A DNA stretch of 64,000 bases from Flavivirga eckloniae (lineage in GTDB: Bacteria; Bacteroidota; Bacteroidia; Flavobacteriales; Flavobacteriaceae), in NCBI RefSeq assembly GCF_002886045.1, contig NZ_CP025791.1, positions 62,001 to 126,000 on the forward strand. The letters run 5' to 3'. The notes beneath the pieces are model-generated. The model searched no databases and was not told the DNA's origin. It saw only the letters and a program-made list of their open reading frames with translations. Position numbers and translations under genes: made by a program. Each line of letters starts with the position of its first letter. Position 1 is the stretch's first letter. Below are positions 13,698 through 39,004 of the stretch, piece by piece.

Positions 13698-13723
13698 ACT
13701 GTCTTAATTCCGTTATACGATAT

Positions 13724-13752: not shown

Positions 13753-13754
13753 AG

Positions 13755-14597: not shown

Positions 14598-14741
14598 TTT
14601 TATATAGTTTTATGGTTTGAAATAGCGTAAGAAAACTATTTCTGCTAGATAAAATTATCAAAATATTTATCGTTACGCAGCTTATGTTGTTTTATTAGAT
14701 TAATGGATGGATTATTTCGATATACCAACTTAATAATGCAT

Positions 14742-14749
14742 TATATTTG
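14742..14749 (+). promoter_or_regulatory. Promoter -7 box at the start of the glycan island
   Basis: TATATTTG is a perfect TAnnTTTG box, 137 bases upstream of the first MBOAT start codon. The long leader that follows contains a strong hairpin (14817-14846). Confidence 0.45.
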
Positions 14750-14816
14750 GATGAAGTGTAGCGGTGGTTTTGTGTCGCTTAAATAAAATATGTGTAATTG
14801 AAAGAGTAATTTTGAT

Positions 14817-14846
14817 ATTCCAAATGTGTTGTAAGACATTTGGAGT
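14817..14846 (+). promoter_or_regulatory. Leader hairpin before the first MBOAT gene
   Basis: A perfect nine-base inverted repeat (TCCAAATGT / ACATTTGGA), extendable by two more pairs through a wobble, with an eight-base loop. No T-run follows, so it is not a simple terminator. It may be an RNA stability or antitermination element, or a protein operator. Confidence 0.45.
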
Positions 14847-14886
14847 CGTTTAGACAGTTTAATCTATTTTAATACTTAATTAGTGC

Positions 14887-16338: not shown

Positions 16339-16343
16339 TAGAG

Positions 16344-21565: not shown

Positions 21566-21600
21566 TTTTGATTGTTAGAGTGTTCATTCATTTATTTTTT

Positions 21601-21630
21601 ACTAGTATTTAATCATTCATAAATACTAGT
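21601..21630. repeat. Perfect inverted repeat between paralogues 2 and 1
   Basis: Eleven-base arms ACTAGTATTTA and TAAATACTAGT with an eight-base loop, 36 bases upstream of the paralogue 1 start. No T-run follows on the coding strand, so it is not a standard terminator. It may be an operator, RNA-stability hairpin or processing site. Confidence 0.6.
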
Positions 21631-21761
21631 CGTACTATATTCTATGTCCTCACATCTTTCAGCTTTAAAGTTTTCAATTTCAATATTTTTGAACGTTTTA
21701 CTTTGTTAAAGTTATTAATATTAATCTCACTAATAACAGATATGTCACCATATCTTGCTGG

Positions 21762-23916: not shown

Positions 23917-24514
23917 CTCCGCTGAAGGTTGTCATGTTTAAACTTTCAGAATTGTTAACGCCTTCTTTTATAATTACTTTCTTTATTGTTAAAAGTAAGA
24001 TTTTTATGTCTAACATGAAAGATAAGTTATCTACATACCAAACATCGTATTCAAATTTCTTAACCCAAAGAATGGTGTTTCTGCCATTTACCTGAGCCCA
24101 ACCGGTAATTCCGGGTTTAACTTCGTGGCGTCTTTTTTGGGTTTCGTTATACAAGGGCAGGTATTCTACAAGAAGTGGTCTTGGGCCAATTAAGCTCATA
24201 TCTCCCTTAAGTACGTTTATTAATTGCAATAATTCATCCAGCGAATACTTTCTAATAAATGCACCTACTTTTGTAACGCGTTGATCGAAAGGTAAAAATT
24301 CGCCATTCTCATCTTTTTTGTCGTTCATTGTTTTGAACTTAATGAGATTGAATACTTTATCGTTTTTACCAGGACGTGGATGAATAAAAAATGGTGTACC
24401 CTTATTGGCAAAGAATAAAAAGATGATCGTAAAAATAATTATGGGCGATAATAGGATAAGTCCTATTAAAGCAGCAAAAAAATCAATTAAACGTTTAAGT
24501 ATATGCTTGTACAT
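23903..24514 (-). CDS. pglC: Initiating phospho-sugar transferase (PglC-type)
   Basis: 203 residues from the ATG at 24514; a longer frame starting at 24571 overlaps the ACP gene and is less likely, because MYKHILKRLIDFF is the family's N-terminus. One membrane segment (about 13-35) is followed by the small monotopic PGT domain: HPRPGKND, FKTMND, RKYSLDELLQLINVLKGDMSLIGPRP (here only as LDELLQLINVLKGDMSLIGP), and VKPGITGWAQVNGRN. It transfers a phospho-sugar from a UDP-sugar to undecaprenyl phosphate, starting the glycan. PglC prefers UDP-diNAc-bacillosamine-type donors, consistent with PglE/PglF homologues at 53783-56852. Its stop overlaps the PLP-like gene. Confidence 0.9.
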   Translation of the reverse strand: MYKHILKRLIDFFAALIGLILLSPIIIFTIIFLFFANKGTPFFIHPRPGKNDKVFNLIKFKTMNDKKDENGEFLPFDQRVTKVGAFIRKYSLDELLQLINVLKGDMSLIGPRPLLVEYLPLYNETQKRRHEVKPGITGWAQVNGRNTILWVKKFEYDVWYVDNLSFMLDIKILLLTIKKVIIKEGVNNSESLNMTTFSGGDNE

Positions 24515-24518
24515 TTTT

Positions 24519-24770
24519 TTAATTGGTGTTTGATGTTTCGGTTTCAATGGCTTTAAGTAAATCCCCAACATTGTCCATGTTCATTAAGTCCATGAGTTTA
24601 AACTTTATTCCGAACATGTTTTCAATTTCTGTAATGATTAGCATGTGGGTTACAGATTCCCAGCCATCTACATCGTGAGCGGTGGTTTCATCTTTAAGCT
24701 CAAAATTATTGTGTTCTAATATTTTTGTAAAAGCTTCGTTTACTTTGCTTAAAATGTCTTCTCTAGTCAT
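24519..24770 (-). CDS. Acyl/peptidyl carrier protein
   Basis: 83 residues. The 4'-phosphopantetheine attachment motif is DVDGWESVTHM with modified Ser39, followed by the usual 'IITEIENMFGIKF' helix. Such stand-alone carriers hold an activated amino acid or acyl group as a thioester. It overlaps the adenylating-enzyme gene by four bases (ATGA type), a strong sign that the two work together, as DltC with DltA or a free PCP with its A domain. No ACP synthase is visible nearby, so a host phosphopantetheinyl transferase must load it. Confidence 0.93.
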   Translation of the reverse strand: MTREDILSKVNEAFTKILEHNNFELKDETTAHDVDGWESVTHMLIITEIENMFGIKFKLMDLMNMDNVGDLLKAIETETSNTN

Positions 24771-26269
24771 TTTTTTTCTATTATTTTTTTTAATTGTTTT
24801 CTGTCTAGTTTGCCATTGCTATTATGTGGAAGTCCCGGTAAAAAAAATGTTTTTGTTGGAACCATATAGTTTGGCAGGTTGTTTTGTAAGTGTTCAAATA
24901 GATTGGTTGTATCTGTTTTTTCGCCTTCAATAACCAAAGCTATTTCATTATTTCCGTTTTCAATATCAATATCAACAACGCTTATGTTGTTGTTTATAAC
25001 GTTTCTTATGTGGTATTCAATTTCGCCAAGCTCCACTCTAAAACCTCTAATCTTTACCTGAAAATCTTTTCTTTCCACATACATAAGGTCACCGTCTTCA
25101 TTCAGATAGCAAACATCTCCGGTTTTATAAAATCGTTTAACCGAACCGTTACTGGTCGTGTGGTTAAAAAATAATTTATCGTTTAGTTTGTCGTTTTTCC
25201 AATATCCAGTTGTAAGCTGATCTCCAGACAGGCATAATTCCCCTTGAACTCCGGACGCTACTGTTTCTCCAGATTCGTTTATAATGATGTACTCAATACC
25301 ATTTAAGGGTTTGCCTATGGGTAATACTCCGTTATGAGATTTATTGGAGCCGTTAATGTTGTAATTGTAATAGGTGCTACAAACAGTACATTCTGTAGGT
25401 CCGTAATGGTTGTAAAGTTTACTGTTAGGAATGCACTTAAGCCATTCTTTAACAATATCGTCGTTTAGTTTGCCGCCTCCAAAAACACAATATCGTACGC
25501 TTTCTGCGTTTATTTCGGAGAAATACGGACGCAGATAGTTTATTATCGCAGGCACCATTTTAATAACTGTTAGTTCGTACTTATTTAAAAGTTTAAAAAC
25601 CTGTAAGTACTTCATGGAGTTGCCAGGTATAGTATAACTGCAGGCTCCTGATAAAAAAGCGGGCATAAATGCTGTAAGCGAGGCATCGAAAGTGAGGTCG
25701 TACATCTGCAAACATTTATCTGAATGATGCAATTTGTATTCGTCGTCTTTGTCTAAGGCGCTTAAAAGAGCGTTTAAGTTTTTAAAACTTATCGGAATTC
25801 CTTTTGGATCACCAGTGCTACCACTTGTAAATAGAATGTATGCGATATTGTTTTCTGAAAAATCAGGGCTTTTCAAATCGTTAATATCTATGCCGGAATC
25901 GCTATTTGTGGTACAGAAAACTTCAAAAGAATCGCTAAAATCGGACGCTTTTGATGAGTCTAGTACGGTATTGATATCTGTTTGATCAAATATTTTTAAA
26001 TTTCTGTCTAATGGCGCAGTGGGGTTAATGGGGATGTGGCCCTTGTTCTCAAACCATAGCGCGAAAATAGAGGCGTAGGTTTCTAAATCGTCATTTGCTA
26101 CTAAGCCAAATAGCTTTTCTTCTGGGTTTATGTTTTTTTGTATATAGAGTCTAATTCTGTTAATAGCATCAGACAAATCTTGATAGGTATAAAAGGTATC
26201 ATTAATACACAGAGCATGCTTTGAACTATGGGTTTTAAATGATTCTTTAAGTCTATTAATAAAATTCAT
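24767..26269 (-). CDS. Amino-acid-type adenylating enzyme (DltA/NRPS A-domain-like)
   Basis: 500 residues, the length of DltA or a single A domain. Core motifs: A3 FTSGSTGDPKG (148-158), A4 FDAS with Asp195, A5 NHYGPTE, A7/A8 YKTGD … RGFRVELGEIE, and A10 NGKLDRK with catalytic Lys487. The FDAS aspartate is the residue that binds the amino group in amino-acid-activating domains, so an amino acid is the likely substrate. It would form an aminoacyl-AMP and load the adjacent carrier protein. By-eye alignment with GrsA puts Lys237 in a pocket position usually not lysine, so the specificity may be unusual. It lies 11 bases after the GNAT-like gene. Confidence 0.9.
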   Translation of the reverse strand: MNFINRLKESFKTHSSKHALCINDTFYTYQDLSDAINRIRLYIQKNINPEEKLFGLVANDDLETYASIFALWFENKGHIPINPTAPLDRNLKIFDQTDINTVLDSSKASDFSDSFEVFCTTNSDSGIDINDLKSPDFSENNIAYILFTSGSTGDPKGIPISFKNLNALLSALDKDDEYKLHHSDKCLQMYDLTFDASLTAFMPAFLSGACSYTIPGNSMKYLQVFKLLNKYELTVIKMVPAIINYLRPYFSEINAESVRYCVFGGGKLNDDIVKEWLKCIPNSKLYNHYGPTECTVCSTYYNYNINGSNKSHNGVLPIGKPLNGIEYIIINESGETVASGVQGELCLSGDQLTTGYWKNDKLNDKLFFNHTTSNGSVKRFYKTGDVCYLNEDGDLMYVERKDFQVKIRGFRVELGEIEYHIRNVINNNISVVDIDIENGNNEIALVIEGEKTDTTNLFEHLQNNLPNYMVPTKTFFLPGLPHNSNGKLDRKQLKKIIEKK

Positions 26270-26280
26270 TAGTTTATAGT

Positions 26281-27375
26281 TTATGCAAAATGACCATCTT
26301 GTTCACTAATTTTCACATTAGTAAAGTTGTAATTAATACTGCTATGGGCTAAAGAAACTTGTTCTTTCTTATTGGCATAGATACATAAAAACTTATGGTG
26401 AATTTGTTTCCCTAAGTTTTCGTTATCGGTAAGTATGTATGTGCATTTAGATTTTATGAAACGCTTCATTAAAATGTCCAGGCAATGGCTGTAATAGTCT
26501 TCGTCTGGTAAAAAATAACGTAATACATATTCGTCTCCTCTTATAAGGGCAGAAAAGAAGCCTACTATTTTGTTATTGCTAAAAACTAAGATGTTCTCGT
26601 TAAAAATTTTGTACGACACACTACTTACCAAACATTTATAAGGTGTTTCTTTTGATCCGTTTGTGTCGATATATTGCTTGTTGTCTATTTGCCAATTAAT
26701 ATATGCTTTCGATTTTGGTATTAAATCACCTTCGCATTTTTTCTCTATAAATTCCCAAACGGTATCGTCTACTGTGTCGATGTTTTTATATGTTGTTTTT
26801 CTGTTGCTTATTGAAATCTTCAACTTGTTTATTGTCGAGATGAAGAAGCGTGAAAGATAGGTGACTACTTTTAATAATGGAGTTAAAGGTTTAAGTGATT
26901 TTACTTTAGTTACGATTAGATTGTGATCTAAACTAAAAACAAAAATATACTTGTCTCGTTTCCCGAATTCTATAAACGATTGTTTTTTGTAATACTCTAA
27001 TGTTTCTTCTCCAACATATTTAACAAGAACCTGTTCTTTTACAGATTCTATAGAGAGTCGCTTCGAATATGTTGATAATACTGAGTTTTCGTATTTTTCG
27101 TGAATCCACCATCTGTTGCTCCAGTACACTTTTTGTTGCCCTTGATCTGTAGCTAGGTAATCGGGTACCAGGTATATAAAAGATATCAATTCGTCTTCCT
27201 CATAACCCAAAATAGCACAAATATCTTCGCTTTGTATGCGTTCGTTTTCAAGTAGCCATTTTGCCTTGTTTTTAGAAAAGGGGACAACTTTGGTGTTTTC
27301 GCCCCAGTATAGGTTTTGACTCAAAGCATCCTCTAACATTTCTTTGGTTAATGGCGTAATATTTATGTTTTGCAT
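26281..27375 (-). CDS. Divergent double-GNAT-like protein
   Basis: 364 residues. The N-terminal half (about 1-145) has a GNAT-like pattern: WLLENER, AILGYEEDELISFIYLVP and a 'YYKKQSFIEFGKRDKYIFV' strand-loop. A short hydrophobic segment lies at about 155-175, then a second GNAT-like half (about 190-350) with ENILVFSNNKIVGFFSAL. The catalytic residues are not obvious. It is the first gene after an internal promoter (27441-27448) and a leader hairpin-terminator (27394-27414), and it is followed directly by the adenylating enzyme and carrier protein, so it probably acts on their product. It is not a member of the eight-paralogue family. Confidence 0.7.
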   Translation of the reverse strand: MQNINITPLTKEMLEDALSQNLYWGENTKVVPFSKNKAKWLLENERIQSEDICAILGYEEDELISFIYLVPDYLATDQGQQKVYWSNRWWIHEKYENSVLSTYSKRLSIESVKEQVLVKYVGEETLEYYKKQSFIEFGKRDKYIFVFSLDHNLIVTKVKSLKPLTPLLKVVTYLSRFFISTINKLKISISNRKTTYKNIDTVDDTVWEFIEKKCEGDLIPKSKAYINWQIDNKQYIDTNGSKETPYKCLVSSVSYKIFNENILVFSNNKIVGFFSALIRGDEYVLRYFLPDEDYYSHCLDILMKRFIKSKCTYILTDNENLGKQIHHKFLCIYANKKEQVSLAHSSINYNFTNVKISEQDGHFA

Positions 27376-27393
27376 AGCGTACTTGACTAGCTT

Positions 27394-27414
27394 AAAAAGT
27401 CACTAAAAAGTGAC
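27394..27414 (-). terminator. Hairpin-terminator in the leader of the GNAT/A-domain/ACP genes
   Basis: On the minus strand GTCACT-TTTT-AGTGAC is followed by TTTTT. It sits 135 bases after the preceding gene's stop, and between a -7 box (27441-27448) and the ATG at 27375. It could end the upstream transcript, attenuate the downstream one, or both. Confidence 0.6.
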
Positions 27415-27440
27415 CGTTGTTTTTATCTAAATTATTGGCT

Positions 27441-27448
27441 CAAATATA
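27441..27448 (-). promoter_or_regulatory. Internal promoter -7 box for the GNAT/A-domain/ACP genes
   Basis: On the minus strand TATATTTG is a perfect TAnnTTTG box, 65 bases before the ATG at 27375. No clear -33 TTTG is present. Confidence 0.4.
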
Positions 27449-27548
27449 TTAAAGTAATTTTTTCTTAACAGATTTAATCTATCTACGACTAGCTTTAGCG
27501 ATTAACAGCTTCGGTAAGCGCATTTTTCACAAATAACGATAAAACAAG

Positions 27549-28700
27549 TTATACGTTAAGAGTGATTTTTTGGTACTGAGCGGCGCTTTTTACAATAAAT
27601 AGATTTTCGCTATTGTTTTTGTAAATTTTTATGTCGTTGCTATGTGTAATTGTTGTGTACAAAAAACTATAAACATGCTTCTTTAACAAAAAGGAGTCAT
27701 TATTTAGGAGAGATAGTTCTTTGAAGCCTTTCAGATCTAAACCATCAATAGGTCTAATCTCTGAAGCTACAATATTACTGCTGTTTTTTCTTTTTGGTGT
27801 TAGGTAATTGTTTATTAAGGGTAAAATTTCGTTTATCTTTTTAGATTTAAGGTATTCTTTAAGTTTAAGTTTGGTGCCGGAAATTCGTGCTTTGTAACTA
27901 GTTAGGAGGGAAGCGCCATTGTAAGTAAGGTGGTAATTGTACCTGTAGATATTGTTGCTCCACCGGCGTTTGTAATCCATTCCACCAACACCCATTTCGA
28001 AAAGTTTGTAGCCGTTGTTGGCGCACCATTCAATTTGTTTGTAGATTTCTACATGACCTAATCCGAACTTTGAGTAATCGATTTTGAATGATGATATGTA
28101 GCTAAATAGCACCTTGTCATAATGGTAGTTTAAAGAAATTTCTATGGGTTCGTCTTCATTGTAAATAACGAATAGCGACGCTTCTTTATTTAAGATTTTT
28201 TCATAGGTGTCTTCAGCTAGTGTTTGCCATTCGTATAGGTTTTTATGTGTTTCGTTTCGTTCCTCAAACCTGGCAATGATCATATCGTACAGCGATTGCA
28301 TGATAAAGTCGTAATCTGCGGGCGGCATCTCGCCGTAAAACATATTGTATTTTATATTGAAACACAGTTCTAGTCGCTTAACATATCGTGTTAGGATGTT
28401 TCTTTTTTTTGAATTGAACTGGCGTTGCATGTAGCCTTCGATAGAATCGGAATCGTTGAGCAGTATGGAGTAGCCCCAGTTGTATTGAGGGATTATTTTG
28501 CTTTTAAAAGAAGTGTCTCTTAGGTTGAGTTTGAAATACTCTGGTACTAGCCTGAATGTAAATATGTTGTTTTTTGCGCATTCAGAGTTTGTTTTGTTCT
28601 TAATGCTTGTTCCAAAATATTCAATGCTCTCGTACAAATGATTGATCTCTGGCGTTCTAAATAAAACAGGAAAGATTGGTATTTTGTTTTTTTTACTCAT
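27549..28700 (-). CDS. FemAB/GNAT-like paralogue 3 (with C-terminal module)
   Basis: 383 residues. The family core is present as ILNKEASLFVIYNEDEPIEISLNY, KIDYSKFGLGHVEIYKQIEW, LFEMGVGGMDYKRRW and YHLTYNG. The signature is altered: FD-KGD of other copies reads FE-VGG here, while YKRRW is intact. The C-terminal module (about 325-383) has NNDSFLLKKHVYSFLY and ends YQKITLNV. It is the last gene of the six-copy tandem block; a 173-base gap with terminator and promoter follows. Preceded by paralogue 4 with a 19-base gap. The specific donor and acceptor are unknown. Confidence 0.8.
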   Translation of the reverse strand: MSKKNKIPIFPVLFRTPEINHLYESIEYFGTSIKNKTNSECAKNNIFTFRLVPEYFKLNLRDTSFKSKIIPQYNWGYSILLNDSDSIEGYMQRQFNSKKRNILTRYVKRLELCFNIKYNMFYGEMPPADYDFIMQSLYDMIIARFEERNETHKNLYEWQTLAEDTYEKILNKEASLFVIYNEDEPIEISLNYHYDKVLFSYISSFKIDYSKFGLGHVEIYKQIEWCANNGYKLFEMGVGGMDYKRRWSNNIYRYNYHLTYNGASLLTSYKARISGTKLKLKEYLKSKKINEILPLINNYLTPKRKNSSNIVASEIRPIDGLDLKGFKELSLLNNDSFLLKKHVYSFLYTTITHSNDIKIYKNNSENLFIVKSAAQYQKITLNV

Positions 28701-28719
28701 TGAATTCTTAGCCTAAGGA

Positions 28720-29916
28720 TTAGTTTTCTATGGTTATTTTTTGTGTCTTTTTTAAACCTTTAAAATAAAACGTTTTTTTGTTATTTGAATCATTATAAAC
28801 TACCACATTGTCTGCTAGTTCCTGGCTTTTATGTAAAAAATAGTTTAAGGGTTTTATTAAAAAATAATAATCGTCTTTACTCAAGTTTATTGTATTTAAG
28901 CTTGTAAGCTTCGGAATTTCGGAAATGGTATTCTCAATATTAAATTTGATGTTTATAGGTGTTTTGTTTTTAGTCTTTGCCAACCTGTATTTATATTTAG
29001 CGTATTTTCCATACCACAGGTGTAGCTTGGTTTTTTTAAGAAATTGAATGAGCTTGAAGCGTAGCTTTAATTTTAGTATTTTAATATGGGCTACAATGGA
29101 GGCGGTTAGAGATTTCGAATTATAGATTACGTGTTCATTGTACATGTATTCTTCGTTAATATATTTTCTTTTATGAAGAAAATCGCCTCGACCCATATCG
29201 AAAATTTTATACCCGTTTTGAAAAGCCCATTCTAAATGGTTTACCATGTTTATATGCCCCAGATTGAACATTTGGTAGTTTATGTCGTAACAGCTATTCC
29301 AGTGAAATACAGTGTCTTCATCTATGAAATTTAAAGTGATACTTATGGGTTTATTTTTGTGGTATATGGCAAAAATACAGGCTTCCTTTTTTAGTATTAA
29401 CGGATACATCATTTGATGATATAGCTCTAAAAAAGGTAATTCGAAATTTAATTCTTCCTTTTGAGCAAAACGTTGTTCAGTCATTTCAAATAAGTTATCA
29501 AAAAGCGAATCGTATTCTTTTTTTGCAATGTCTCCGTGAAATATTTTGTATTCGGGAGCAATACATAAATCCAGTCGTTTTCTATATCTTTTTAATTGTG
29601 ATTTTCTTGGCCTGCCTAATTTGTTGTTTAGATAATCCTCTAAATCCTCAAAAAGTTCTAAGTTTATTAAATACCCAGCATAAAGCGGAGTCGATAATTG
29701 TTTTAAATGTTTCGTAGTGTTCTTAAAATCAATAGAAAAATAGTTGGGGACGTCACTAATACTATATGTTTTATGTTCTACATCAAGATTGGAATCTGTT
29801 TTGTGTACAACATTGTTTGTGAACGAATTGGTTATTTTTTTCCAAAAAGGAGGGAAGGCCTTGTTTTTAAAAAACAGGTCTAATAAAAAACTAACATGGG
29901 CGTGCTTTTTACTCAT
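28720..29916 (-). CDS. FemAB/GNAT-like paralogue 4 (with C-terminal module)
   Basis: 398 residues. Core: LILKKEACIFAIYHKNKPIS, YDINYQMFNLGHINMVNHLEW, then IFDMGRGDFLHKRKY and EHVIYNS. The signature has His for the Tyr of YK and Tyr for the terminal Trp, so the active region is remodelled. The C-terminal module (about 340-398) has KDDYYFLIKPLNYFLH and ends KTQKITIEN. Its 3' neighbour starts 19 bases later and its start overlaps paralogue 5 by eight bases, so translation is coupled. Confidence 0.8.
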   Translation of the reverse strand: MSKKHAHVSFLLDLFFKNKAFPPFWKKITNSFTNNVVHKTDSNLDVEHKTYSISDVPNYFSIDFKNTTKHLKQLSTPLYAGYLINLELFEDLEDYLNNKLGRPRKSQLKRYRKRLDLCIAPEYKIFHGDIAKKEYDSLFDNLFEMTEQRFAQKEELNFELPFLELYHQMMYPLILKKEACIFAIYHKNKPISITLNFIDEDTVFHWNSCYDINYQMFNLGHINMVNHLEWAFQNGYKIFDMGRGDFLHKRKYINEEYMYNEHVIYNSKSLTASIVAHIKILKLKLRFKLIQFLKKTKLHLWYGKYAKYKYRLAKTKNKTPINIKFNIENTISEIPKLTSLNTINLSKDDYYFLIKPLNYFLHKSQELADNVVVYNDSNNKKTFYFKGLKKTQKITIEN

Positions 29917-31075
29917 TCTGTTCTATGGTTACAAGTTGACTTTTATTATTGGATTTTATTAAATACTGGTTTTGAGAATTGTTGATTTTAAGCACTTTCG
30001 TATTGTTGACAGATGCTTTGGAGGTAAATAAAAAATCGTATAGGGTTTTCCTTAAAAAAGCATAGTCGTTATTTTTATGGATGTTTATTTGTGATGTGCT
30101 TTCTATTTTGCTTTCATCTGGATTGTCAACAATAACAATAGGTTTAGCATGTGCTGTTTTAATTTTTCCTCTATTAATCTTTTTAAATTGTAAATGTAGT
30201 TTCGAGCCTTTAATTACAGTGTAGCTTTTGTATTTAATGCGTTCCTTTAAATGTATTAATTTCCCAATGAAAAATGAATTTATTGAGTTTGAATTATAAA
30301 CGACGTGATTGTAATAATAATGCGACTTTGTAGCCCATTTTGTTTTGTAATAATCGTAGCCTTTCAATAGGTCGTAAACTTCAAAAGCATTATTAAAACA
30401 CCATTCAATATTTTTTAACATATCGATACTTCCTAAGTGGAATTTCGAATAATCGATATCGTAACCACTAATAATGTAAAACCCTAGCTTTTCCTTAAAC
30501 ATATTAATTCTTATGCTAATAGGTTTTTTCCCGTCGTAAATAACAAATAGGCTGGCTTTTTTACTTATTATTAAATCATACACGATATCGTGAAATTCTT
30601 CCAAATGCTGCAGTTCGTAATTGACTTCTTGTTTTTCGTTGAACCGTTTTATTAACAGGTCTTTTAAAACAACAAAAAGACGATCGTATTCTTGTTTGTC
30701 AATCTCGCCGTGGTAACAAGCGTAGTTTATGTTAAAACAGGTTTCCAGTCTGTTTTGGTAACGCCTTAGGTTTGATCTGCTTTTGGTGCTAAAGTTTAAC
30801 TTTAAGTACTCTGAAAAGCTTTTAAATGACTTGATTTCAACCAAATGCCCTTTAAGTGTCTTTGTTTGGGCTAACTTTAGTTTGTTTTTAGGTTGTGTAT
30901 TTATGTTTAGATAGTCGGGAAAATCTTTAATTAAAAATACGTGTTCGGGAGTATTCGAACTGGTGTTAATGGTGTAGTTAAAACCCATACTATCTGTAAC
31001 TTTACTGTATATGGAGGGGAGGCTATTTTCTGCTAAAAATGCTTTTAAAAATGTTATATTTTTAATGATAGCCAT
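29909..31075 (-). CDS. FemAB/GNAT-like paralogue 5 (with C-terminal module)
   Basis: 388 residues. Core: IISKKASLFVIYDGKKPISI, GYDIDYSKFHLGSIDMLKNIEW, VYDLLKGYDYYKTKW and NHVVYNS. The signature keeps the D, K, G, YK and W positions. Upstream, 'TKSRSNLRRYQNRLETCFNI' is the shared basic helix found in all copies. The C-terminal module (about 328-388) has NNDYAFLRKTLYDFLF and ends SQLVTIEQNE. It overlaps paralogue 4 by eight bases and lies four bases after paralogue 6. Confidence 0.82.
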   Translation of the reverse strand: MAIIKNITFLKAFLAENSLPSIYSKVTDSMGFNYTINTSSNTPEHVFLIKDFPDYLNINTQPKNKLKLAQTKTLKGHLVEIKSFKSFSEYLKLNFSTKSRSNLRRYQNRLETCFNINYACYHGEIDKQEYDRLFVVLKDLLIKRFNEKQEVNYELQHLEEFHDIVYDLIISKKASLFVIYDGKKPISIRINMFKEKLGFYIISGYDIDYSKFHLGSIDMLKNIEWCFNNAFEVYDLLKGYDYYKTKWATKSHYYYNHVVYNSNSINSFFIGKLIHLKERIKYKSYTVIKGSKLHLQFKKINRGKIKTAHAKPIVIVDNPDESKIESTSQINIHKNNDYAFLRKTLYDFLFTSKASVNNTKVLKINNSQNQYLIKSNNKSQLVTIEQNE

Positions 31076-31079
31076 AGGT

Positions 31080-32267
31080 TTATTGAAAGGTGATTTTAGA
31101 TATGGTATTTTTCCCTTTTACAAGATAAGTATCTGTTTCATTTTGAAATTTAAAAATTTCTATAGTGTTTATAGATTCTTGATTGCTGTATAAAAGGTTG
31201 TATACGGGCCTTTTTAAGTAGCTGAAGGTGTCGTTGTTTAAATCGACGTTTGTCAGTTTGGTTTCAGGATTTAACGTTTCAAGCTTTTCAATAGTTGTTT
31301 TAGAATCATCAGTAATCTTGCTCAATTCCCTATTCCGGTATTTATACTTTAAAAAATTGTGATACAATGTATTAAAGTTCATTTTCTTTAAAACTTTAAC
31401 CAATGCGTAAAAGGCACGGGTTCTGGTAACGATTATGTTAGCAGAAAGTCTGGTTATTATTGATTTTGAATTGTATAATACGTGTTTTTGAAAATCGTAT
31501 TGAGTATCGATAAGTTTGGTTTTGTAGGGGTAATTTCCCTTTAGGAGATCGAAAATCTCTATATCATTTTCGAAGCACCAATCAAGTTGCTTTATAAAAT
31601 CTGTAAACCCGATATAAAACTTTGAGTAATCGATATCGTAGGTTCTTATATAACCATAAATTGTTTTGTTTCTTACCAAATTCAAACAAATGCTAATAGG
31701 TTTCTTGTTATTGTAGATAACAAAAAGTGCAGCTTCTTTACTATTTATTAGGGGGTAAGCTATTTCGTGATAAATACTCCAACGAGACAGATCGTAATTC
31801 TGTATTTTTTTTTCTAAAAACCGATTTTTGATCATCTTATGAAATTCATCAAAAAGATATTCGTATTCGCTTCTCGAAATCTCGCCAAAAAAGCTTTTGT
31901 ACTCTATGTTAAAGCACGTTTCCAGTCTGCGTTTGTATGTTCTAAATTTCGATCGTCGCCCTGCGCTAAACTTACTCTTTAAATAAGCGTTTGTATCGCT
32001 GTAATTTTTAAGCAGAATTAATGATCCTTTGTATGTGTTTATAGTTTTTAGCTTCCATTTGGTGCTCGTAACCGTTGCTTTTAAATAGCTGGGAAAGTCA
32101 TAAATACAATACAGGAAATTATCGTCTTTAGGTTCTGGTGTTGTGCTTTTGTGTATGTACTCCTTAGAAATACTATTTAAAATTTTGCTATAAACAGGCA
32201 GGAGCACTTTTCTTTCTAAAAAAGTACTTAAAACATCCAGACTATTTGGCAATATTCTTTTTAACAT
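31080..32267 (-). CDS. FemAB/GNAT-like paralogue 6 (with C-terminal module)
   Basis: 395 residues. Core: LINSKEAALFVIYNNKKPISI, YDIDYSKFYIGFTDFIKQLDW, IFDLLKGNYPYKTKL and KHVLYNS. The terminal Trp of the signature is Leu here; D, K, G and YK remain. The shared basic helix is SAGRRSKFRTYKRRLETCFN. The C-terminal module (about 335-395) has NNDTFSYLKRPVYNLLY and ends ISKITFQ. Gaps of four bases separate it from both neighbours, as expected for a tight operon built by tandem duplication. Confidence 0.82.
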   Translation of the reverse strand: MLKRILPNSLDVLSTFLERKVLLPVYSKILNSISKEYIHKSTTPEPKDDNFLYCIYDFPSYLKATVTSTKWKLKTINTYKGSLILLKNYSDTNAYLKSKFSAGRRSKFRTYKRRLETCFNIEYKSFFGEISRSEYEYLFDEFHKMIKNRFLEKKIQNYDLSRWSIYHEIAYPLINSKEAALFVIYNNKKPISICLNLVRNKTIYGYIRTYDIDYSKFYIGFTDFIKQLDWCFENDIEIFDLLKGNYPYKTKLIDTQYDFQKHVLYNSKSIITRLSANIIVTRTRAFYALVKVLKKMNFNTLYHNFLKYKYRNRELSKITDDSKTTIEKLETLNPETKLTNVDLNNDTFSYLKRPVYNLLYSNQESINTIEIFKFQNETDTYLVKGKNTISKITFQ

Positions 32268-32271
32268 ACAG

Positions 32272-33222
32272 CTATTGTTTTACAACCTTGCTTTTATAAG
32301 TGTAAATAAGTTTATCGAACATAAATAGTTTTCCAATTATGTTTTTATTTCTTAAAAATTGCAGGAGTTTAAGCTCTAGGGCTATAACTCTTGCGCTTAA
32401 CCTGGATATGATTGATCGTTTATTGTAAAAAATATGATAGAAGAAATGATAGGTATGGTTACTCCATTTTTCTTTATAATACGTTTTGCCCATCGATAGG
32501 TCGAATATGCTAATGTGGTTGTTTATTAGCCATTCTATATGGTGCACCATGCTAATATCTCCCATGTTGTATTTTGAATAATTCATATCGTAGGTTTGAA
32601 TATGGCTAAAAACGATATCGTTTAAATGAAAATTCAATGTAATGGCGATAGGGTTGGAGTTATCATAGATTACATGTAATGAGGCATTCCTATCTTGTAT
32701 TTTTTGAAAAGTAGATGCTTGCAAGTCATTCCAGTTAGGGAGGTACCTATTGTACATTTTCTTCTTTTTAAATCGTGCATTGAGTAATTTGTAGAAATCC
32801 TCAAAAATCCTATCATATTCCTGCTTATCTATGCTTCCGAAAAATACCTGTGATGAAATATTGTGGTTTTCGTGAAGCCTATTAGTTTTTGAATTTAAAT
32901 TCTTTCTGTTTCGTTTGTTAAGCGTACTATTTATAAAGTCTGTAGCATTTGTATATCCAGATAGATTTAACAGATATCCATTGTATTGCAGTACTTCTTT
33001 AAATTTAGTGTTTGCATCTTTTGGGGTAAAGGTAAAATAGTTAGGAATGTCCTTGGTGATATAGATGGATTTAAAATCACTATCTATAAGGTTTTTGGTG
33101 GTATAGTTTCTTTGGGTTAATGCATTCGAAACTTTACCATTATACAACGAGCTTATTGTTTTGTTTAAAAACAAATCAAAAATTAAATGACTGTTCTTAT
33201 TAAAAAAAAGCTTGTGAATCAT
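32272..33222 (-). CDS. FemAB/GNAT-like paralogue 7 (short, no C-terminal module)
   Basis: 316 residues, the shortest copy. Core: IQDRNASLHVIYDNSNPIAI, YDMNYSKYNMGDISMVHHIEW, IFDLSMGKTYYKEKW and YHIFYNK. The KG pair of the signature reads MG, while YK and W are kept. The shared basic helix is LNKRNRKNLNSKTNRLHENH. It ends shortly after the core without the C-terminal module. It lies four bases upstream of paralogue 6 and 48 bases after paralogue 8. Confidence 0.8.
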   Translation of the reverse strand: MIHKLFFNKNSHLIFDLFLNKTISSLYNGKVSNALTQRNYTTKNLIDSDFKSIYITKDIPNYFTFTPKDANTKFKEVLQYNGYLLNLSGYTNATDFINSTLNKRNRKNLNSKTNRLHENHNISSQVFFGSIDKQEYDRIFEDFYKLLNARFKKKKMYNRYLPNWNDLQASTFQKIQDRNASLHVIYDNSNPIAITLNFHLNDIVFSHIQTYDMNYSKYNMGDISMVHHIEWLINNHISIFDLSMGKTYYKEKWSNHTYHFFYHIFYNKRSIISRLSARVIALELKLLQFLRNKNIIGKLFMFDKLIYTYKSKVVKQ

Positions 33223-33270
33223 CTAAAATGGTTAGTCTTAATTTATGGTTTAATTTACTGAAATAATTTG

Positions 33271-34281
33271 TTATTCAGCGTACCGTTTTGAGTTTAGAAA
33301 AAATTTGAACTGATGGATATAATCCGTAAGATGCTTTTTTCTAACAAATAGTTTAAAGGCAAATAGGTTTTTATAGAATAAGGCTAGTGCCTTGGCTTTT
33401 ATCGACTTTTTATCATAAAAAATGTGGTATTCGAACCAATAAGGTTTATTAGCCCATCGTTGCTTGTATTCATAATAACCTTTAGAGAAATCTAAAGCTT
33501 TGTAATTGTTTTCTATACACCATTCTAATTGCTTCATAATGCTAACAGTGCCAAGTCTAAGCTTTTTATAATCGATATCGAAAACCCTAATAACGTCCAG
33601 TACGGTATCCTTAGAAAAATTAAGCAGGGTAATAGCGATAGGCTTATCTTTATCGTATACTACAAAAAGCCCAGCTTGTTTATTTAAAATCAAGGGTAAG
33701 GTTACTTCCTTATAAAAGTCCCATTCCTCAGGATCTAAATTGTTGTTTACAATTTTTTTATCAGAAAAGCGCTTTTTAAGCAGCTTGTTAAAATGATTAA
33801 AGATGTTTTCGTATGTCTCTGGGGTTATGTCGTCTAAATACATTTTATAATGTATGTCGTGCGACGTTTCCAGCTTGCGTTTGTAACTGTTAAACTTGTA
33901 ACGGCTTTTTTTGCTAATAACATCGAGCATGTATTCTTTAAGTGTATTGTACTTTTTTAAGTCGCAAATAAACCCAGGATACTGCTTCACTTTATAACAG
34001 CTTATAGCGTTGGTGCTTGTGTTGTTTTTTCCATTAAACTCTGGTACATCGTAAATTATAAAAACATTGTTCTTATAGTCGCTGGAAATGTTGTTAGACA
34101 GTCTGTATGAAATTCCTTTTGTATTAGTGGTGCCCGTACTAAGAAATACAGGTAGCTTTTTATGTTTTATAAAAGTAAGGGTATTAACAAAACTAAAAGT
34201 CAATGGCTTTTTGTTATCGTTAAAGTGTTTTAACCATATAGACTTAAAAGTTTTTAATAAATAAGGATTTTCATTATTCAT
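33271..34281 (-). CDS. FemAB/GNAT-like paralogue 8 (no C-terminal module)
   Basis: 336 residues. Core: ILNKQAGLFVVYDKDKPIAI, FDIDYKKLRLGTVSIMKQLEW, ALDFSKGYYEYKQRW and YHIFYDK, with the complete signature. Its N-terminus (FKSIWLKHFN … DYKNNVFIIYDVPE) matches paralogues 1 and 2 much better than its tandem neighbours, so it belongs to their subgroup although it is 12 kb away. It lies eight bases after the SGNH gene and is the first of the six-copy block. Confidence 0.82.
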   Translation of the reverse strand: MNNENPYLLKTFKSIWLKHFNDNKKPLTFSFVNTLTFIKHKKLPVFLSTGTTNTKGISYRLSNNISSDYKNNVFIIYDVPEFNGKNNTSTNAISCYKVKQYPGFICDLKKYNTLKEYMLDVISKKSRYKFNSYKRKLETSHDIHYKMYLDDITPETYENIFNHFNKLLKKRFSDKKIVNNNLDPEEWDFYKEVTLPLILNKQAGLFVVYDKDKPIAITLLNFSKDTVLDVIRVFDIDYKKLRLGTVSIMKQLEWCIENNYKALDFSKGYYEYKQRWANKPYWFEYHIFYDKKSIKAKALALFYKNLFAFKLFVRKKHLTDYIHQFKFFLNSKRYAE

Positions 34282-34289
34282 TTAGTCCG

Positions 34290-35237
34290 TTATTTTTCTG
34301 TTAAATTAGTTTTAATATCCCTACTTAACAACTTAGAGAACTCCTTAGCGCTTTTTGAAAGCATATGGGAGCCATCGTAAGTTTTGTAATTATCACCTAA
34401 GGTTGAATAATTTAAAAATTTTACACCATACTTTTTAGAAATACTATCGATTTGTTTGTCGAAGTCTTTCCATAAACTATTTTCCAAGGCTATAATATCG
34501 GTATCTGCCGGTAAGCGAACAATAAAAACATTGCCAGCGGTTTTTAAATATTGAATGGTGTTTATAAAATGGTTTAAACGGTAATTGGAGAGCTGTTCTT
34601 TTTTTATTTTCCTTTTGTAATATCTAATGGTTAACGATTTCCAGTGTTTAATATCGCTTTCTTTCATTTTCTGGAACTTACCATTTTCGGTTACTTCGTT
34701 CCATCCGTTCTGGTGTGGGATATAATGCTCCCATTTATTTAAATCGTGCAGCGTGTTATATAAAGGTTGCGAATAGGTGTTAATGATATAGCTGTAGTTT
34801 GGTAGAGACGTTAAATTGTCTACTTTACCAATAATACCCTCTTTATCCATGTTGTAAACATTGGTGTCGTCCATACCAAGTGGGGCAGAGAAACTTCCCG
34901 GGGAAATGGAAACAATAAATAAACCTTTCTTGGCATTTGGTTTTATTTTTTTCTTAATGCCTTCTAGGTATATTTCGCCGTAAGATGACTGTACTGTGTT
35001 CATGGCAAAATTAACCATAGGCTTTTCGAAATTATCAGAGCTTAATTCATTTTCAATGACTTCTGGTGAAATCCCTTCGCTAGCACGCGATAAACCAAGA
35101 ATAAGACCGCCAGCTTCTTGCGAAAACTTATTGTAATATGGGTCTACATAACCTTCCGAAAGCTTGTTTACAAAATAGGCATAAGTTACTGCTAGTATTA
35201 TGCTGAAAATGATTGTCTTAAAAATAAAGCTTTTCAT
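34290..35237 (-). CDS. Membrane-anchored SGNH-like protein (DltD/AlgJ-type), partner of MBOAT copy 2
   Basis: 315 residues. One N-terminal anchor helix (about 5-24) places the domain outside the inner membrane. The nucleophile region is LILGLSRASEG with probable Ser50; the C-terminal block is YDGSH with Asp288 and His291, the DxxH pair of SGNH/DltD folds. Other blocks are weak, so the class assignment rests on these motifs plus the position five bases after an MBOAT gene. In Dlt systems DltD with DltB transfers the aminoacyl group from the carrier protein to the surface polymer. An adenylating enzyme and carrier protein lie in the same gene block. Confidence 0.75.
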   Translation of the reverse strand: MKSFIFKTIIFSIILAVTYAYFVNKLSEGYVDPYYNKFSQEAGGLILGLSRASEGISPEVIENELSSDNFEKPMVNFAMNTVQSSYGEIYLEGIKKKIKPNAKKGLFIVSISPGSFSAPLGMDDTNVYNMDKEGIIGKVDNLTSLPNYSYIINTYSQPLYNTLHDLNKWEHYIPHQNGWNEVTENGKFQKMKESDIKHWKSLTIRYYKRKIKKEQLSNYRLNHFINTIQYLKTAGNVFIVRLPADTDIIALENSLWKDFDKQIDSISKKYGVKFLNYSTLGDNYKTYDGSHMLSKSAKEFSKLLSRDIKTNLTEK

Positions 35238-35242
35238 GATCG

Positions 35243-36691
35243 TTAAAATTGAAAATAAATAAATGTGTTCTGACGGTTAATAGCGAATAGAACTATCGTT
35301 AAAACATAACACATATATATACTCCACCTTATGGGTGTTGATTTACTTATAACCAATTCGTAAATTTTATCGTTTCCTTTAAAATAATGAATGGTTTGTA
35401 CGGCTATCATTAAGGCAAAGCATAAAAATAGCTCGAAATAATTGTTTAAAATATTAACATGTAAGCCGGTAATATTAAACATGTTCTTGAAATACAGTAT
35501 GGCATCTGCTACAGATGGTGACCTAAAAAAGATTAAAGGGATGCTAAGGAGTACTACTATAGCGCACCACCCCAGTATGTTAATTGCAATTTGAGGGAGT
35601 TTAAGGGCTTTAAAAATGCGTTTTCTAATACCGTTGGTACTAAACTCTATAATAAGCAGTATGGCATTAATTATTCCCCAAATAACAAAGGTCCAATTAG
35701 CTCCATGCCATAATCCTACAACAAAGAACAGGATAAGTACATTTCTAATAATTTTTAGTTTGGATCCTCTCGATCCGCCTAATGGTATGAAAATATAATC
35801 TTTAAGCCAGTCCATTAATGATATGTGCCAGCGTTTCCAAAAATCTGATATGGATGTTGAAAAGTAAGGTCTGTTAAAATTTTGCACCAAATCAATCCCC
35901 ATTACTTTAGCAGCACCTATTGCGATAGCCGTGTAGGCTGAAAAATCATAATATATTTGATACGCAAAGAAAAAGGAGCCAATAAACAAAGGGAGCCCAT
36001 GATTGAATTCTGGGTCTTCGAAAGCAGCATCAACATAAACACCTAATCTGTCTGCTACCACAACTTTTAAAAAAAAGCCCCATGCTATTAATACGAGTCC
36101 TTTTTTAATATTATCCAAATTAACCGTAGCCAAGGTTTTTAATTGGGGAATAAGTCTTGATGCTCTTTCTATAGGCCCAGCAACCAACTGAGGGAAGAAA
36201 GATACATACAAGGCAAAATACCCAAAGTGTTTTTCTGGTTTAATATGTCCTCGATAAACATCTATGCTGTAACCAAGTGTTTGAAATGTGTAAAAGCTTA
36301 TGCCCACAGGTATTAAAATCTGATTGAAACTGTAAGCACCCGTATTCTGTGTTTCGGAAATAGCTATTCCGAAAAAAGCCAATACATCTTGAATTGACGA
36401 TGTAAAAAAGGATAGGTACTTAAAAGAAAATAGTATGCCAATGTTTACAAGTATGCTTATACATAAGTATAGCTTTTTCATCGATTGCCTTGCGTGAGCC
36501 ATTTTAAGGGCGCAAAAATAATCTACGGTAGTAGAAATAAATAAAAGAATGGCTAGTTCTGGTTGGTGAACCATATAAAAATAATAACTGCCAAGTAAAA
36601 GCCACAACCATCTGTGTTTATGGTTAAGTAGGTAATATCCAATAATCATTATTGGAAAGAAAACAAGGAATTCAAACGAATTGAACAGCAT
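35243..36691 (-). CDS. MBOAT-family acyltransferase (DltB/AlgI-like), copy 2
   Basis: 482 residues with about ten membrane helices. MBOAT motifs: 'YVSFFPQLVAGPIERASRLI', WKRWHISLMDWLKDYIFIPLGG and LWHGANWTFVIWG with the conserved His. It is closely related in layout to copy 1 but encoded on the other strand, at the head of the block that carries the adenylating enzyme, the carrier protein and eight FemAB-like copies. It is followed five bases later by an SGNH-like partner. It has a -7 box 33 bases upstream of the start, so it is the first gene of the transcript. Confidence 0.92.
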   Translation of the reverse strand: MLFNSFEFLVFFPIMIIGYYLLNHKHRWLWLLLGSYYFYMVHQPELAILLFISTTVDYFCALKMAHARQSMKKLYLCISILVNIGILFSFKYLSFFTSSIQDVLAFFGIAISETQNTGAYSFNQILIPVGISFYTFQTLGYSIDVYRGHIKPEKHFGYFALYVSFFPQLVAGPIERASRLIPQLKTLATVNLDNIKKGLVLIAWGFFLKVVVADRLGVYVDAAFEDPEFNHGLPLFIGSFFFAYQIYYDFSAYTAIAIGAAKVMGIDLVQNFNRPYFSTSISDFWKRWHISLMDWLKDYIFIPLGGSRGSKLKIIRNVLILFFVVGLWHGANWTFVIWGIINAILLIIEFSTNGIRKRIFKALKLPQIAINILGWCAIVVLLSIPLIFFRSPSVADAILYFKNMFNITGLHVNILNNYFELFLCFALMIAVQTIHYFKGNDKIYELVISKSTPIRWSIYMCYVLTIVLFAINRQNTFIYFQF

Positions 36692-37008: not shown

Positions 37009-37228
37009 GCGTTTGAATTTAATAGTGGAGTAATCCAATATCGTTTTTTGGACGTATATATGGATTAATTAATAGCAACTAAGCGCACTTAATCGTTAAA
37101 ATCTGTATTTAATCGACTACAAAAAAAATAAAAATTGCATTTGGTCGAAAAAACAAATCACTTAAACGATGGTTCGCAAAAATTATTTAGTATTGAACAA
37201 ATTATTAACTCCCCAAATTATGATAACC

Positions 37229-39004
37229 ATGAAAAGGATTTTAAAAACTATGCTGCTCGTTTTAATAATATTGATGTCAACTGTATCATGTAATAAAGAC
37301 GAATTATTTGTAGAAGAAAAAGAAATAGTTAAAGAAGAAACTCCCGGCGGAAACAATGAAGAACCCGAGGAAGAGGAAGAACCAGGGAAACCTGATGCGA
37401 CGTTACCATGTGACTTTACTTTAGATAATGTTGAGCCCAACTCAACTATAGTTATAAACTGTATTTTAGACTTAGAAGGAAAAACGGTTGACCTTCCAGC
37501 TAATGTTACCATAGATTATGAAGGTGGTGATATTATTAATGGTACCATTAACTTTTCTGAGGGTAATACTATAGATGGAAACTTGTTGAATTCCACTTTA
37601 ATAATTGGAGGAACCAAGCCACAGGTTAAAGACCCGACTTTTAATTTTGACCCAAAAAGATGGGGAATTGTTGAAGGAAAGGTTTCTGATGATGTTGCCT
37701 GGGAAAACAGAAATATTTTGAGTGAAATATTTATTAAGGTTAAAGAGCTTGGGGTTAATACCTTTAGGATAGATGAAATGGATGCCTACTTTAAAGTGAG
37801 TAAGGATGATAATTTCCCTCCAAAAAGCAGAATGGCAGATATTTTCATTCCATCTGACTTTAATTTAATCATGACTGATAATACGCATTTGAGAGTACAG
37901 CCAAATAAGTATACAGATTATACTTTATTAGGTGTGTACGATGTATCTCATGTAACCATTAAAGGTGGGCATTTGCACGGTGATAGAGATGAGCATCAAT
38001 ATATAGATCATGGAGGAGAAACAGGTCATGGCGATAGCTCGTTAATCAATCTGGAAGCCGCTTACGATGTTGTTGTCGATGGGGTACATATGATAGATGC
38101 TACTGGTGATGGCATATTGGTTAAAGCCATAGGGTTTGCGTTTAACCCGGATTATAACCCTTCAAATAAAATTTTAATTAAAAACTGTATTATAGATAAG
38201 AGTAGACGTAATAATATTTCTATTGTAAATGCGCATGATGTTGTTGTTGAGCATTGTGAAATATTAAATGCTGGTGCTCCTACAGGTAAATCGGTTGGAA
38301 CGTTACCAATGATGGGAATTGATATCGAAGCTTACAGAAGTACAGATGATAATGGAAACATTATTTATTATGAATTAGCTCAAAATATTACCATTAGAAA
38401 TAATATTGAAAGAGGTAGTGTTACTACAGCTTTTACGGTATTTATTGGTGACGATGTTACTATTGAAGATAATGAAACCGAAAATGGTATAGGTTATGCT
38501 TACGCCACAGGTGTAAAAATAAAGAATAACAAAATTACCGGTGATGGTACAGATAAGTATATAAGTGCCATTGGAGCAGGAAAAGCGGATACTGAGACTA
38601 CTTATGATTGTGAGATTTCTGGAAATACCATTGTAGGGTATAATACTGCTATTACATTATACTCTAAGGATACGAAAATCTTTGATAATGAGACAGAAGA
38701 TTGTAGAAGAGGTATATTCGTAACTAATAGTAATAATATACGTAATGTAGATATTTACGGTAATACGTTTAAAAGTGATAGAAGTAATAGTGCTGGTTTT
38801 TATGCGCAACTTGCAGCTTTAAATGATATAAATATTTACGAAAACGAAATTGACGTTAATGGAAACGCAGTTCATTTCAGTAGTGTAAATCTTGAAGCAG
38901 GGACAGAAAACAATACGGTTACAGTAAATAACAATTTCTTTATGTCGTCTAATCCCGCTAAGGTTTCTAACTCAAACGGTATTATTCTAAGGGATAACAA
39001 TTAG
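37229..39004 (+). CDS. Right-handed beta-helix lipoprotein
   Basis: 591 residues from the ATG at 37229; an upstream in-frame ATG at 37169 would add 20 residues before the signal peptide and is less likely. The signal peptide MKRILKTMLLVLIILMSTVSC has lipobox STVSC, so it is a lipoprotein, probably on the cell surface because an acidic linker (Glu-rich, about residues 25-55) follows. The rest is repeated short strands with 'NNxIxG / NxI' turns typical of pectate-lyase-like parallel beta helices. Many such proteins are polysaccharide lyases, epimerases or adhesins, but no catalytic residues can be assigned. It stands alone between divergent glycan operons. Confidence 0.82.
   Translation: MKRILKTMLLVLIILMSTVSCNKDELFVEEKEIVKEETPGGNNEEPEEEEEPGKPDATLPCDFTLDNVEPNSTIVINCILDLEGKTVDLPANVTIDYEGGDIINGTINFSEGNTIDGNLLNSTLIIGGTKPQVKDPTFNFDPKRWGIVEGKVSDDVAWENRNILSEIFIKVKELGVNTFRIDEMDAYFKVSKDDNFPPKSRMADIFIPSDFNLIMTDNTHLRVQPNKYTDYTLLGVYDVSHVTIKGGHLHGDRDEHQYIDHGGETGHGDSSLINLEAAYDVVVDGVHMIDATGDGILVKAIGFAFNPDYNPSNKILIKNCIIDKSRRNNISIVNAHDVVVEHCEILNAGAPTGKSVGTLPMMGIDIEAYRSTDDNGNIIYYELAQNITIRNNIERGSVTTAFTVFIGDDVTIEDNETENGIGYAYATGVKIKNNKITGDGTDKYISAIGAGKADTETTYDCEISGNTIVGYNTAITLYSKDTKIFDNETEDCRRGIFVTNSNNIRNVDIYGNTFKSDRSNSAGFYAQLAALNDINIYENEIDVNGNAVHFSSVNLEAGTENNTVTVNNNFFMSSNPAKVSNSNGIILRDNN

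Follow-up and report, generated by a model that had tools for sequence, protein, structure and literature searches.

A conserved triad of tandem-GNAT protein, adenylating enzyme and carrier beside a FemAB-like gene array in a flavobacterial surface-polysaccharide locus

Which enzyme receives the activated amino acid when one glycan locus encodes an amino-acid adenylating enzyme, a carrier protein, an MBOAT acyltransferase and a row of FemAB-like proteins? The question is raised by a stretch of 64,000 nucleotides of the Flavivirga eckloniae genome (contig NZ_CP025791.1; G000:C1:62001-126000 in our genome numbering, hereafter the window), a genome of 5.67 Mb in a single contig. Amino acids on surface sugars alter charge, antigenicity and recognition, and to our knowledge few enzymes are known to put them there in Bacteroidota. 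The original prediction, drawn from the window alone, saw in one minus-strand block the four component types of a Dlt-like machine and supposed that carrier-bound amino acids are handed on to the FemAB-like enzymes or to the MBOAT. The open reading frames that it named are all present, each in its place and on its strand, but we arrive at a different division of labour. The ligase and the carrier belong to a fixed triad headed by a tandem-GNAT protein and separable from the MBOAT/FemAB block, and we propose that it is to this protein that the carrier delivers the amino acid.

The triad lies on the minus strand. Its first gene encodes the tandem-GNAT protein (26281-27375; 'GNATx'), a proposed carrier-dependent aminoacyl-transferase on the evidence of its model and of gene order. 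It is followed by a stand-alone amino-acid adenylating enzyme, here the ligase (24767-26269; Pfam AMP-binding, 3.6e-57), and by a carrier protein (24519-24770; PP-binding, 1.4e-4) with DGWES around the expected phosphopantetheine serine, and the last two genes overlap by four bases, just as originally described. The ligase scores 302.9 bits against the NCBIfam amino-acid adenylation domain, just under the cut-off of 317.4, and core motifs of the nonribosomal peptide synthetase type, TSG[ST]TG and NGK, are present in 11 of 11 ligases. The closest solved sequence to the carrier is 2LML (E 3.2e-11), and the genome holds two matches to phosphopantetheinyl-transferase families.

Gene order is constant among relatives. 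In a sample of 199 genomes drawn from the family of the window, a ligase match at E <= 1e-60 was found in 13; the close form (11 copies, 46-100% identity) occurs in nine of these, and all nine have the order tandem-GNAT, ligase, carrier. Five further ligase matches, in G119, G021, G162 and G096, share 30-36% identity. Scanning a species-genome collection with the tandem-GNAT alignment, by two peptide patterns and hence non-exhaustively, gave 74 distinct loci, 72 of them labelled Flavobacteriaceae and two (L130 and L141) only Bacteroidota. The three genes are adjacent in 71 of the 74; as for the other three, L086 meets a contig end, L141 sits on a contig of 3,954 bases, and L103 has a tandem duplicate that our rule does not count. 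A search over 395 genomes of the phylum returned four matches, the window's own included; two of them were half-length, and the surrounding 18 kb of each of these two contained neither a ligase relative nor a carrier relative. A second, distant tandem-GNAT match is found in G072. Because the gene caller can hide a short carrier frame under a longer one, as in G019, where the carrier was later found, and probably in G387, every absence of a carrier was rechecked in all frames. Tandem-GNAT protein, ligase and carrier are thus a fixed triad, separable from the MBOAT/FemAB block.

What would this ligase activate? An aspartate stands at the alpha-amino-binding position in all 74 aligned ligases, that of the window among them. 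Eight codes are spread over these ligases, namely DFVTSGYVYK (50), DATKIGHVCK (8), DFVSSGYIYK (5), DATKVGHVCK (4), DMVICAYIYK (3), DFVVCGSVTK (2), DFAACGGVYK (1) and DMVTSAYIYK (1). The window has DATKVGHVCK, of which DATKVGHV agrees at six of eight positions with the SrfAB-M2-Asp signature DLTKVGHI; DATKIGHV agrees at seven of eight with DLTKIGHV, a signature shared by two pyoverdine modules of P. syringae that are assigned to Asp (both signatures as listed in PMC3207962). Since its code resembles these published Asp signatures, the window ligase is predicted to activate aspartate, which is most likely its substrate.

The tandem-GNAT protein matched no Pfam or NCBIfam family, and a PDB sequence search was likewise unproductive. 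Its AlphaFold2 model, built on 49 sequences (predicted local distance difference test, pLDDT, 92.4), has two GNAT-like halves, so that the GNAT-like label given earlier holds by predicted fold and not by family match. Among the best 50 PDB matches to the model (E about 1e-11 to 1e-10), N-myristoyltransferases and tandem GNATs predominate, and acyl-thioester N-acyltransferases are included. In a tree of 76 tandem-GNAT rows, all 12 partners of Asp-code ligases fall within one half of 20 rows, and the Asp-code label changes four times, against a mean of 11.3 on shuffling, with 0 of 500 shuffles as low. Spongiivirga citrea (L103) has both kinds in a row: at 9995-15240 a GNAT, a ligase with DATKIGHVCK, a second GNAT and a ligase with DFVTSGYVYK, and after these a single carrier. 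The first of its GNATs is placed in the Asp half and the second in the other half (56 rows), each as is typical of the partner code. We propose from these patterns that the tandem-GNAT protein is a transferase fixed to the ligase and carrier, which takes the amino acid from the latter.

The acceptor of the aminoacyl group may be a 4-amino sugar, to judge from the genes nearby. A PglC-type phosphoglycosyl transferase for the initiating sugar (23903-24571, minus strand; Pfam Bac_transf, 1.6e-61) is confirmed in the window, and a gene of this type lies within the fetched flanks of 70 of the 74 triad loci. On the plus strand, a LegC/PglE-type aminotransferase (53783-54907; Pfam DegT, 1.7e-95; 385 bits against the LegC family, below the cut-off of 420) is likely part of UDP-4-amino-sugar synthesis (UDP, uridine diphosphate), and a CapD/PglF-type 4,6-dehydratase comes next (54912-56852; Pfam Polysacc_synt_2, 5.7e-119). 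Carrier, PglE/PglF-type and PglC-type genes are therefore co-located in the window locus, as they are in the WfpD/WfpG type of system. Near the triad, some related loci encode PglD, or a formyltransferase, or a fusion of PglD with a FemAB-like domain. A PglD_N profile run over the F. eckloniae genome gave two hits, one 1.19 Mb away and the other inside the CapD protein, and none else in the locus. Fusions seen in single loci are of PglD to a FemAB-like domain (L083:16135-18957), of PglD to an FAD/NAD-binding domain (L110:14414-16657) and of an FAD/NAD-binding domain to FemAB (L132:14170-17880). L083 belongs to Flavivirga aquimarina, a relative in culture that has both triad and array, and the FemAB-like part of its fusion is of the 19084 type described below.

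The second element of the locus is its FemAB-like genes. Eight FemAB/GNAT-like paralogues, six of them within the block, had been recorded, and all eight match Pfam Acetyltransf_6 (3.8e-10 to 1.4e-14), to which a ninth must now be added. The eight are on the minus strand: Fem1 (20330-21565; 4.7e-12) and Fem2 (21762-22811; 8.5e-11), which is 70% identical to Fem1, and then the array proper, consisting of Fem3 (27549-28700; 3.8e-10; six array copies in one clade, support 100/99), Fem4 (28720-29916; 8.2e-11; clade support 100/99), Fem5 (29909-31075; 2.3e-12; 100/98), Fem6 (31080-32267; 1.1e-10; 100/95), Fem7 (32272-33222; 5.3e-12; 100/100) and Fem8 (33271-34281; 1.4e-14; 100/100). Fem2 is shorter than Fem1 and looks truncated, because the family match continues beyond its stop (window 21588-22811) with further stops inside. 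None of the eight matches Pfam FemAB (PF02388), and three pass the cut-off of FemAB_like (PF04339). The ninth protein (19084-20181, plus strand; Acetyltransf_6, 1.8e-16; FemAB, 1.3e-8) is related to FemX: it passes PF02388 with 34.5 bits against a cut-off of 24 and matches FemX itself at E 2.7e-4. In relatives, FemAB-like genes do lie with the ligase-carrier pair, a gene of the 19084 type being found within the fetched flanks of 71 of the 74 triad loci. In the window this gene is preceded by an ATP-grasp gene with a PylC-like amino-terminal domain and a HAD gene (17446-19075), and the same trio occurs in G133, a genome without a tandem-GNAT match.

The array has an order of its own. MBOAT, SGNH-like protein and Fem8-7-6-5-4-3 follow one another identically in the window, G019, G070 (with one duplicate), G006 and G072, and G120 keeps this order without Fem8. 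In a tree of 97 FemAB-like proteins, Fem4, Fem5, Fem6, Fem7 and Fem8 each form one clade with 100% bootstrap, and the G120 copies fall within the Fem4-Fem7 clades. The array genes are old, distinct paralogues, since the orthologues of Fem3-Fem8 form separate 100% clades. At least four FemAB-like genes lie in the flanks of 13 of the 74 triad loci. FemAB-like matches at 1e-10 occur in 46 of the 199 family genomes, and in 17 of them there are at least three, counted from at most nine scored candidates per genome and irrespective of adjacency; 12 of these 17 array genomes have no tandem-GNAT match. Nor did 15 array stretches from 13 genomes contain, in any of the frames, a ligase relative or a carrier relative; applied to triad stretches, this test does detect both. 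The conservation of the carrier with the array that had been anticipated holds only in part: triad and array occur together in 5 of the 199 genomes, the triad alone in 4 and the array alone in 12, their co-occurrence being above chance (Fisher p = 2.5e-4). The two modules are separable, but they are not independent.

What donor would the array use? The AlphaFold2 model of Fem6 (53 sequences, pLDDT 92.2) has FemX (4ii9, E 1.5e-8) as its best PDB match, and its neighbours among the best 50 include Sbb17, Sba18, MprF, aminoacyl-phosphatidylglycerol synthases, FemA, ATE1 and L/F-transferase; when PDB sequences were searched with a profile of the array alone, no match resulted. Lysine 301 of the 19084-20181 protein aligns with the FemX lysine (Lys305 of FemXWv) and is present in all 66 aligned rows, the other 20 of the 86 having a gap at that column. 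In the array, lysine 249 (Fem6 numbering) is invariant in 53 of 53 rows, its equivalence to Lys305 of FemX being by shared motif only. A precedent is offered by streptothrisamine, an acceptor that carries an amino sugar. Orf11 is described as turning it into glycylthricin with the use of Gly-tRNA (tRNA, transfer RNA; PMC12945691). Because of these structure neighbours, the conserved lysine and the Orf11 precedent, we rank aminoacyl-tRNA first among possible donors, and it is most likely what the array enzymes use, as far as predicted folds can tell.

On the basis of conservation, modularity, code, predicted folds and the lysine, it seems probable, if only just, that the locus holds two modules side by side, a carrier-fed triad that aminoacylates an amino sugar and a tRNA-fed FemAB array, with the MBOAT pair separate from both. 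Substrate, acceptor, donors and order of steps would then be as follows. The adenylating enzyme would activate an amino acid, most likely aspartate, and load it onto the dedicated carrier. The tandem-GNAT protein would take the aminoacyl group from there and attach it to a 4-amino-4,6-dideoxy sugar through the amino group of the latter; this sugar, linked to a nucleotide or a lipid, would be made by the PglF/PglE-type pair and used by the PglC-type transferase. The tandem-GNAT protein would then stand where related loci have a PglD-type acetyltransferase, or a formyltransferase, or WfpG with its carrier dependence. The six orthologous FemAB-like enzymes would most likely add tRNA-borne amino acids, one position each, to the sugar or to the sugar-bound amino acid, and the MBOAT and SGNH-like pair would O-acylate the glycan separately. 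The original prediction is accordingly supported in part: its observation stands, and its interpretation splits, in that the carrier would feed the tandem-GNAT protein, tRNA the FemAB array, and the MBOAT would act alone. More boldly, the locus could run two amino-acid economies, in which the triad sets aspartate on the amino sugar and the non-redundant FemAB-like enzymes extend a fixed, template-free oligopeptide from aminoacyl-tRNAs, so that the polysaccharide would bear a non-ribosomal peptide branch; this is conceivable, and we hold it to be doubtful. If the two-module reading is true, the tandem-GNAT family would be a carrier-dependent glycan aminoacyl-transferase whose substrate the code of the accompanying ligase may reveal, and the array of six genes would be a candidate system for assembling a peptide step by step on a polysaccharide. 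The 74 loci are material for testing this, and both enzyme types could be tested as purified proteins.

Several observations weigh against two fully separate modules with these donors and acceptor. The template-modelling (TM) scores of the tandem-GNAT model to known folds are low (0.40-0.59), as are those of Fem6 to FemX (0.36-0.44 over about 250 columns), and the best 50 matches of Fem6 also contain 2hqy and 3frm, of function unknown, and, from rank 35, tandem GNATs that depend on coenzyme A (CoA). A CoA-loop pattern was found in 0 of 49 tandem-GNAT rows, in either half, which is weak evidence against CoA because two distant relatives (loops HRGKQIA and YRKKRPA) also fail the pattern. The pairing of GNAT and code is not strict, since the Asp half of 20 rows contains seven rows with other codes, two of which (L089 and L099) carry DFVTSGYVYK, and one row without a code. 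Both L103 GNATs are long branches whose placement the tree program marks as unsure, and the fork that places the first has support of 98/76 and is not starred. The code positions were placed by what we take to be the PheA numbering, without a printed structural alignment. Three of the 12 array genomes without a tandem-GNAT match are incomplete or contaminated (G015 is 84% and G147 73% complete, and G057 has 8% contamination). Finally, the co-occurrence of triad and array goes against full separation and, because it exceeds chance, a functional link between them in the glycan is possible.

That co-occurrence would also suit a loaded carrier acting as the amino-acid donor of the FemAB array, as had originally been supposed, and so would the gene of the 19084 type so often found near the triad. 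Yet most array genomes manage without a tandem-GNAT match and the array stretches without ligase or carrier relatives, the nearest folds to the array protein are mostly aminoacyl-tRNA users, and a FemX-type lysine stands in every one of the 53 rows; we consider such feeding of the array improbable. A somewhat stronger case, although still an unlikely one, can be made for FemAB-like proteins that are not aminoacyltransferases at all but N- or O-acyltransferases dependent on acyl-CoA or an acyl carrier. It is Acetyltransf_6 that calls them, FemAB_like does so for only three of eight, the array profile drew nothing from PDB sequences, and CoA-dependent tandem GNATs stand among the lower structure matches. 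The top structure neighbours and the invariant lysine argue for aminoacyl transfer instead, as does the related 19084 protein, which aligns with FemX over the lysine region. As to the triad, it might activate an acid other than aspartate or make a free aminoacylated metabolite and no glycan substituent. The variety of codes among orthologues and a ligase score just below the amino-acid adenylation cut-off would allow this, but every code has an aspartate where the amino group is bound, and PglC and sugar genes are frequent neighbours, and we give this alternative little credence.

There remains the Dlt-like machine, in which the MBOAT would take the carrier-bound amino acid and, with the SGNH-like protein, O-aminoacylate the glycan outside. 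All four component types are indeed in the block. The MBOAT that heads it (35243-36691, minus strand; Pfam MBOAT, 1.7e-32) is confirmed, and its partner (34290-35237, minus strand) has an N-terminal hydrophobic stretch as a membrane anchor and the motifs GLSR and DGSH, which we take to be of SGNH type; as this protein matches no Pfam or NCBIfam family, it owes its label to these features of the translation. Against the DltB model the MBOAT scores 150.6 bits (cut-off 375), and against the DltA model the ligase scores 245.7 (cut-off 559.85), so neither reaches its family. Cassettes in Dlt order (ligase, carrier, MBOAT, SGNH-like protein) do exist in G019 (220741-224875; L023:8741-12875) and G070 (147295-151422; L026:295-4422), but their code is DLVLLCVIYK and their MBOAT is of a different type, nearer to the other MBOAT of the window (14887-16338). 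The window-type MBOAT keeps to the array instead. The SGNH-like gene adjoins MBOAT and array in G019, G070, G006, G072 and G120, the last of which has the whole MBOAT-SGNH-array block and no tandem-GNAT match, and in G044, G163, G121 and G177 the 40 kb examined of each contain the triad but no window-type MBOAT. Within triad flanks of at most 10 kb, a window-type MBOAT is found in 1 and an SGNH-like gene in 5 of the 74 loci, the MBOAT lying further out in array loci. Since ligase and MBOAT fall below the family cut-offs and the four parts are not one conserved unit, the ligase and carrier going with the tandem-GNAT protein and the other two with the array, we rejected a single Dlt-like machine, and transfer to the MBOAT seems to us improbable. 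G070 also has a row of FkbH-like gene, carrier, MBOAT and SGNH-like gene (L026:4609-8942), which looks like a version of that cassette in which a glyceroyl-type group would replace the amino acid. The second MBOAT of the window and its partner, which is without a clear Pfam family (together 14887-17306), have their nearest genes in the flanks of 58 and 59 of the 74 triad loci.

As a whole, the locus resembles a surface-polysaccharide cluster of the Wzx/Wzy type in a Flavobacteriaceae genome. It encodes a flippase, an EpsG family protein, glycosyltransferases, a pyruvyl transferase, a TviB-like dehydrogenase and a TviC-like epimerase, polysaccharide export proteins and Wzz/AAA-type proteins, besides the PglE/LegC-type aminotransferase and CapD/PglF-type dehydratase. 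The protein at 22840-23916 (minus strand) had been called DegT-fold, an identity that we could not confirm because Pfam, NCBIfam and PDB sequences gave no match of note; its relatives lie near PglC in 5 of the 74 triad loci and in G121, G133 and G387. A Cupin_8/JmjC-like protein (13755-14597; 4.6e-42), a possible hydroxylase, recurs as a relative in several examined loci, those of G019, G070, G006, G061 and G169. A beta-helix protein gene (37169-39004) is divergent from the array block, and its relatives flank 42 of the 74 triad loci. A protein of 428 amino acids without a Pfam match (47953-49239) has relatives in G019 and G070, likewise between pyruvyl transferase and flippase. Sigma-70-like promoter matches number 22 in the window, about as many as chance would give (22.96).

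No title or abstract met in searches of an open-licence library describes a locus of such composition, as the original prediction had held, but several described systems come near it. The XrtA/PEP-CTERM families of FemAB (TIGR03019) and AMP ligase (TIGR03098) are one such case, although the 19084-20181 protein (48.4 bits against a cut-off of 260.35) and the window ligase (194.6 against 592.35) score far below them. DltABCD, which D-alanylates teichoic acid, shares with the block all of its types, ligase, carrier, MBOAT and SGNH-like protein; the window parts are not one conserved unit, and the window code differs from that of the Dlt-order cassettes in relatives and, as a prediction, suggests aspartate where Dlt has D-alanine. 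The array resembles FemABX, Orf11 and Sbb17-Sba18, described as GNAT-fold aminoacyltransferases with a conserved lysine (PMC12945691), and differs in that a single glycan locus holds six to nine paralogues. Like the triad, AlmEFG of Vibrio cholerae, as described for lipid A (PMC3783018, PMC12930378), pairs a stand-alone adenylating enzyme and a separate carrier with a transferase acting on a Gram-negative surface glycolipid; the ligase and carrier names are swapped between the two reports, and we use the naming of the later one. Its transferase is described as of the lysophospholipid acyltransferase kind, its substrate as glycine and its acceptor as a lipid A acyl chain. Another parallel is the O-polysaccharide of F. 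psychrophilum, where the PglD homologue WfpG is predicted to move an acyl group from the carrier WfpD to UDP-Qui2NAc4NH2 and the PglC homologue WfpB to transfer the sugar thereafter (PMC6519341). There, as in the window, a flavobacterial O-polysaccharide locus combines a dedicated carrier with PglE/PglF and a PglC-type transferase. In that account a PglD-like transferase would move a dihydroxyhexanoyl group supplied by enzymes of the fatty-acid type, whereas in the window, where a PglD-like transferase was not found, the carrier is paired with an amino-acid adenylating enzyme and the proposed transferase is the tandem-GNAT protein.

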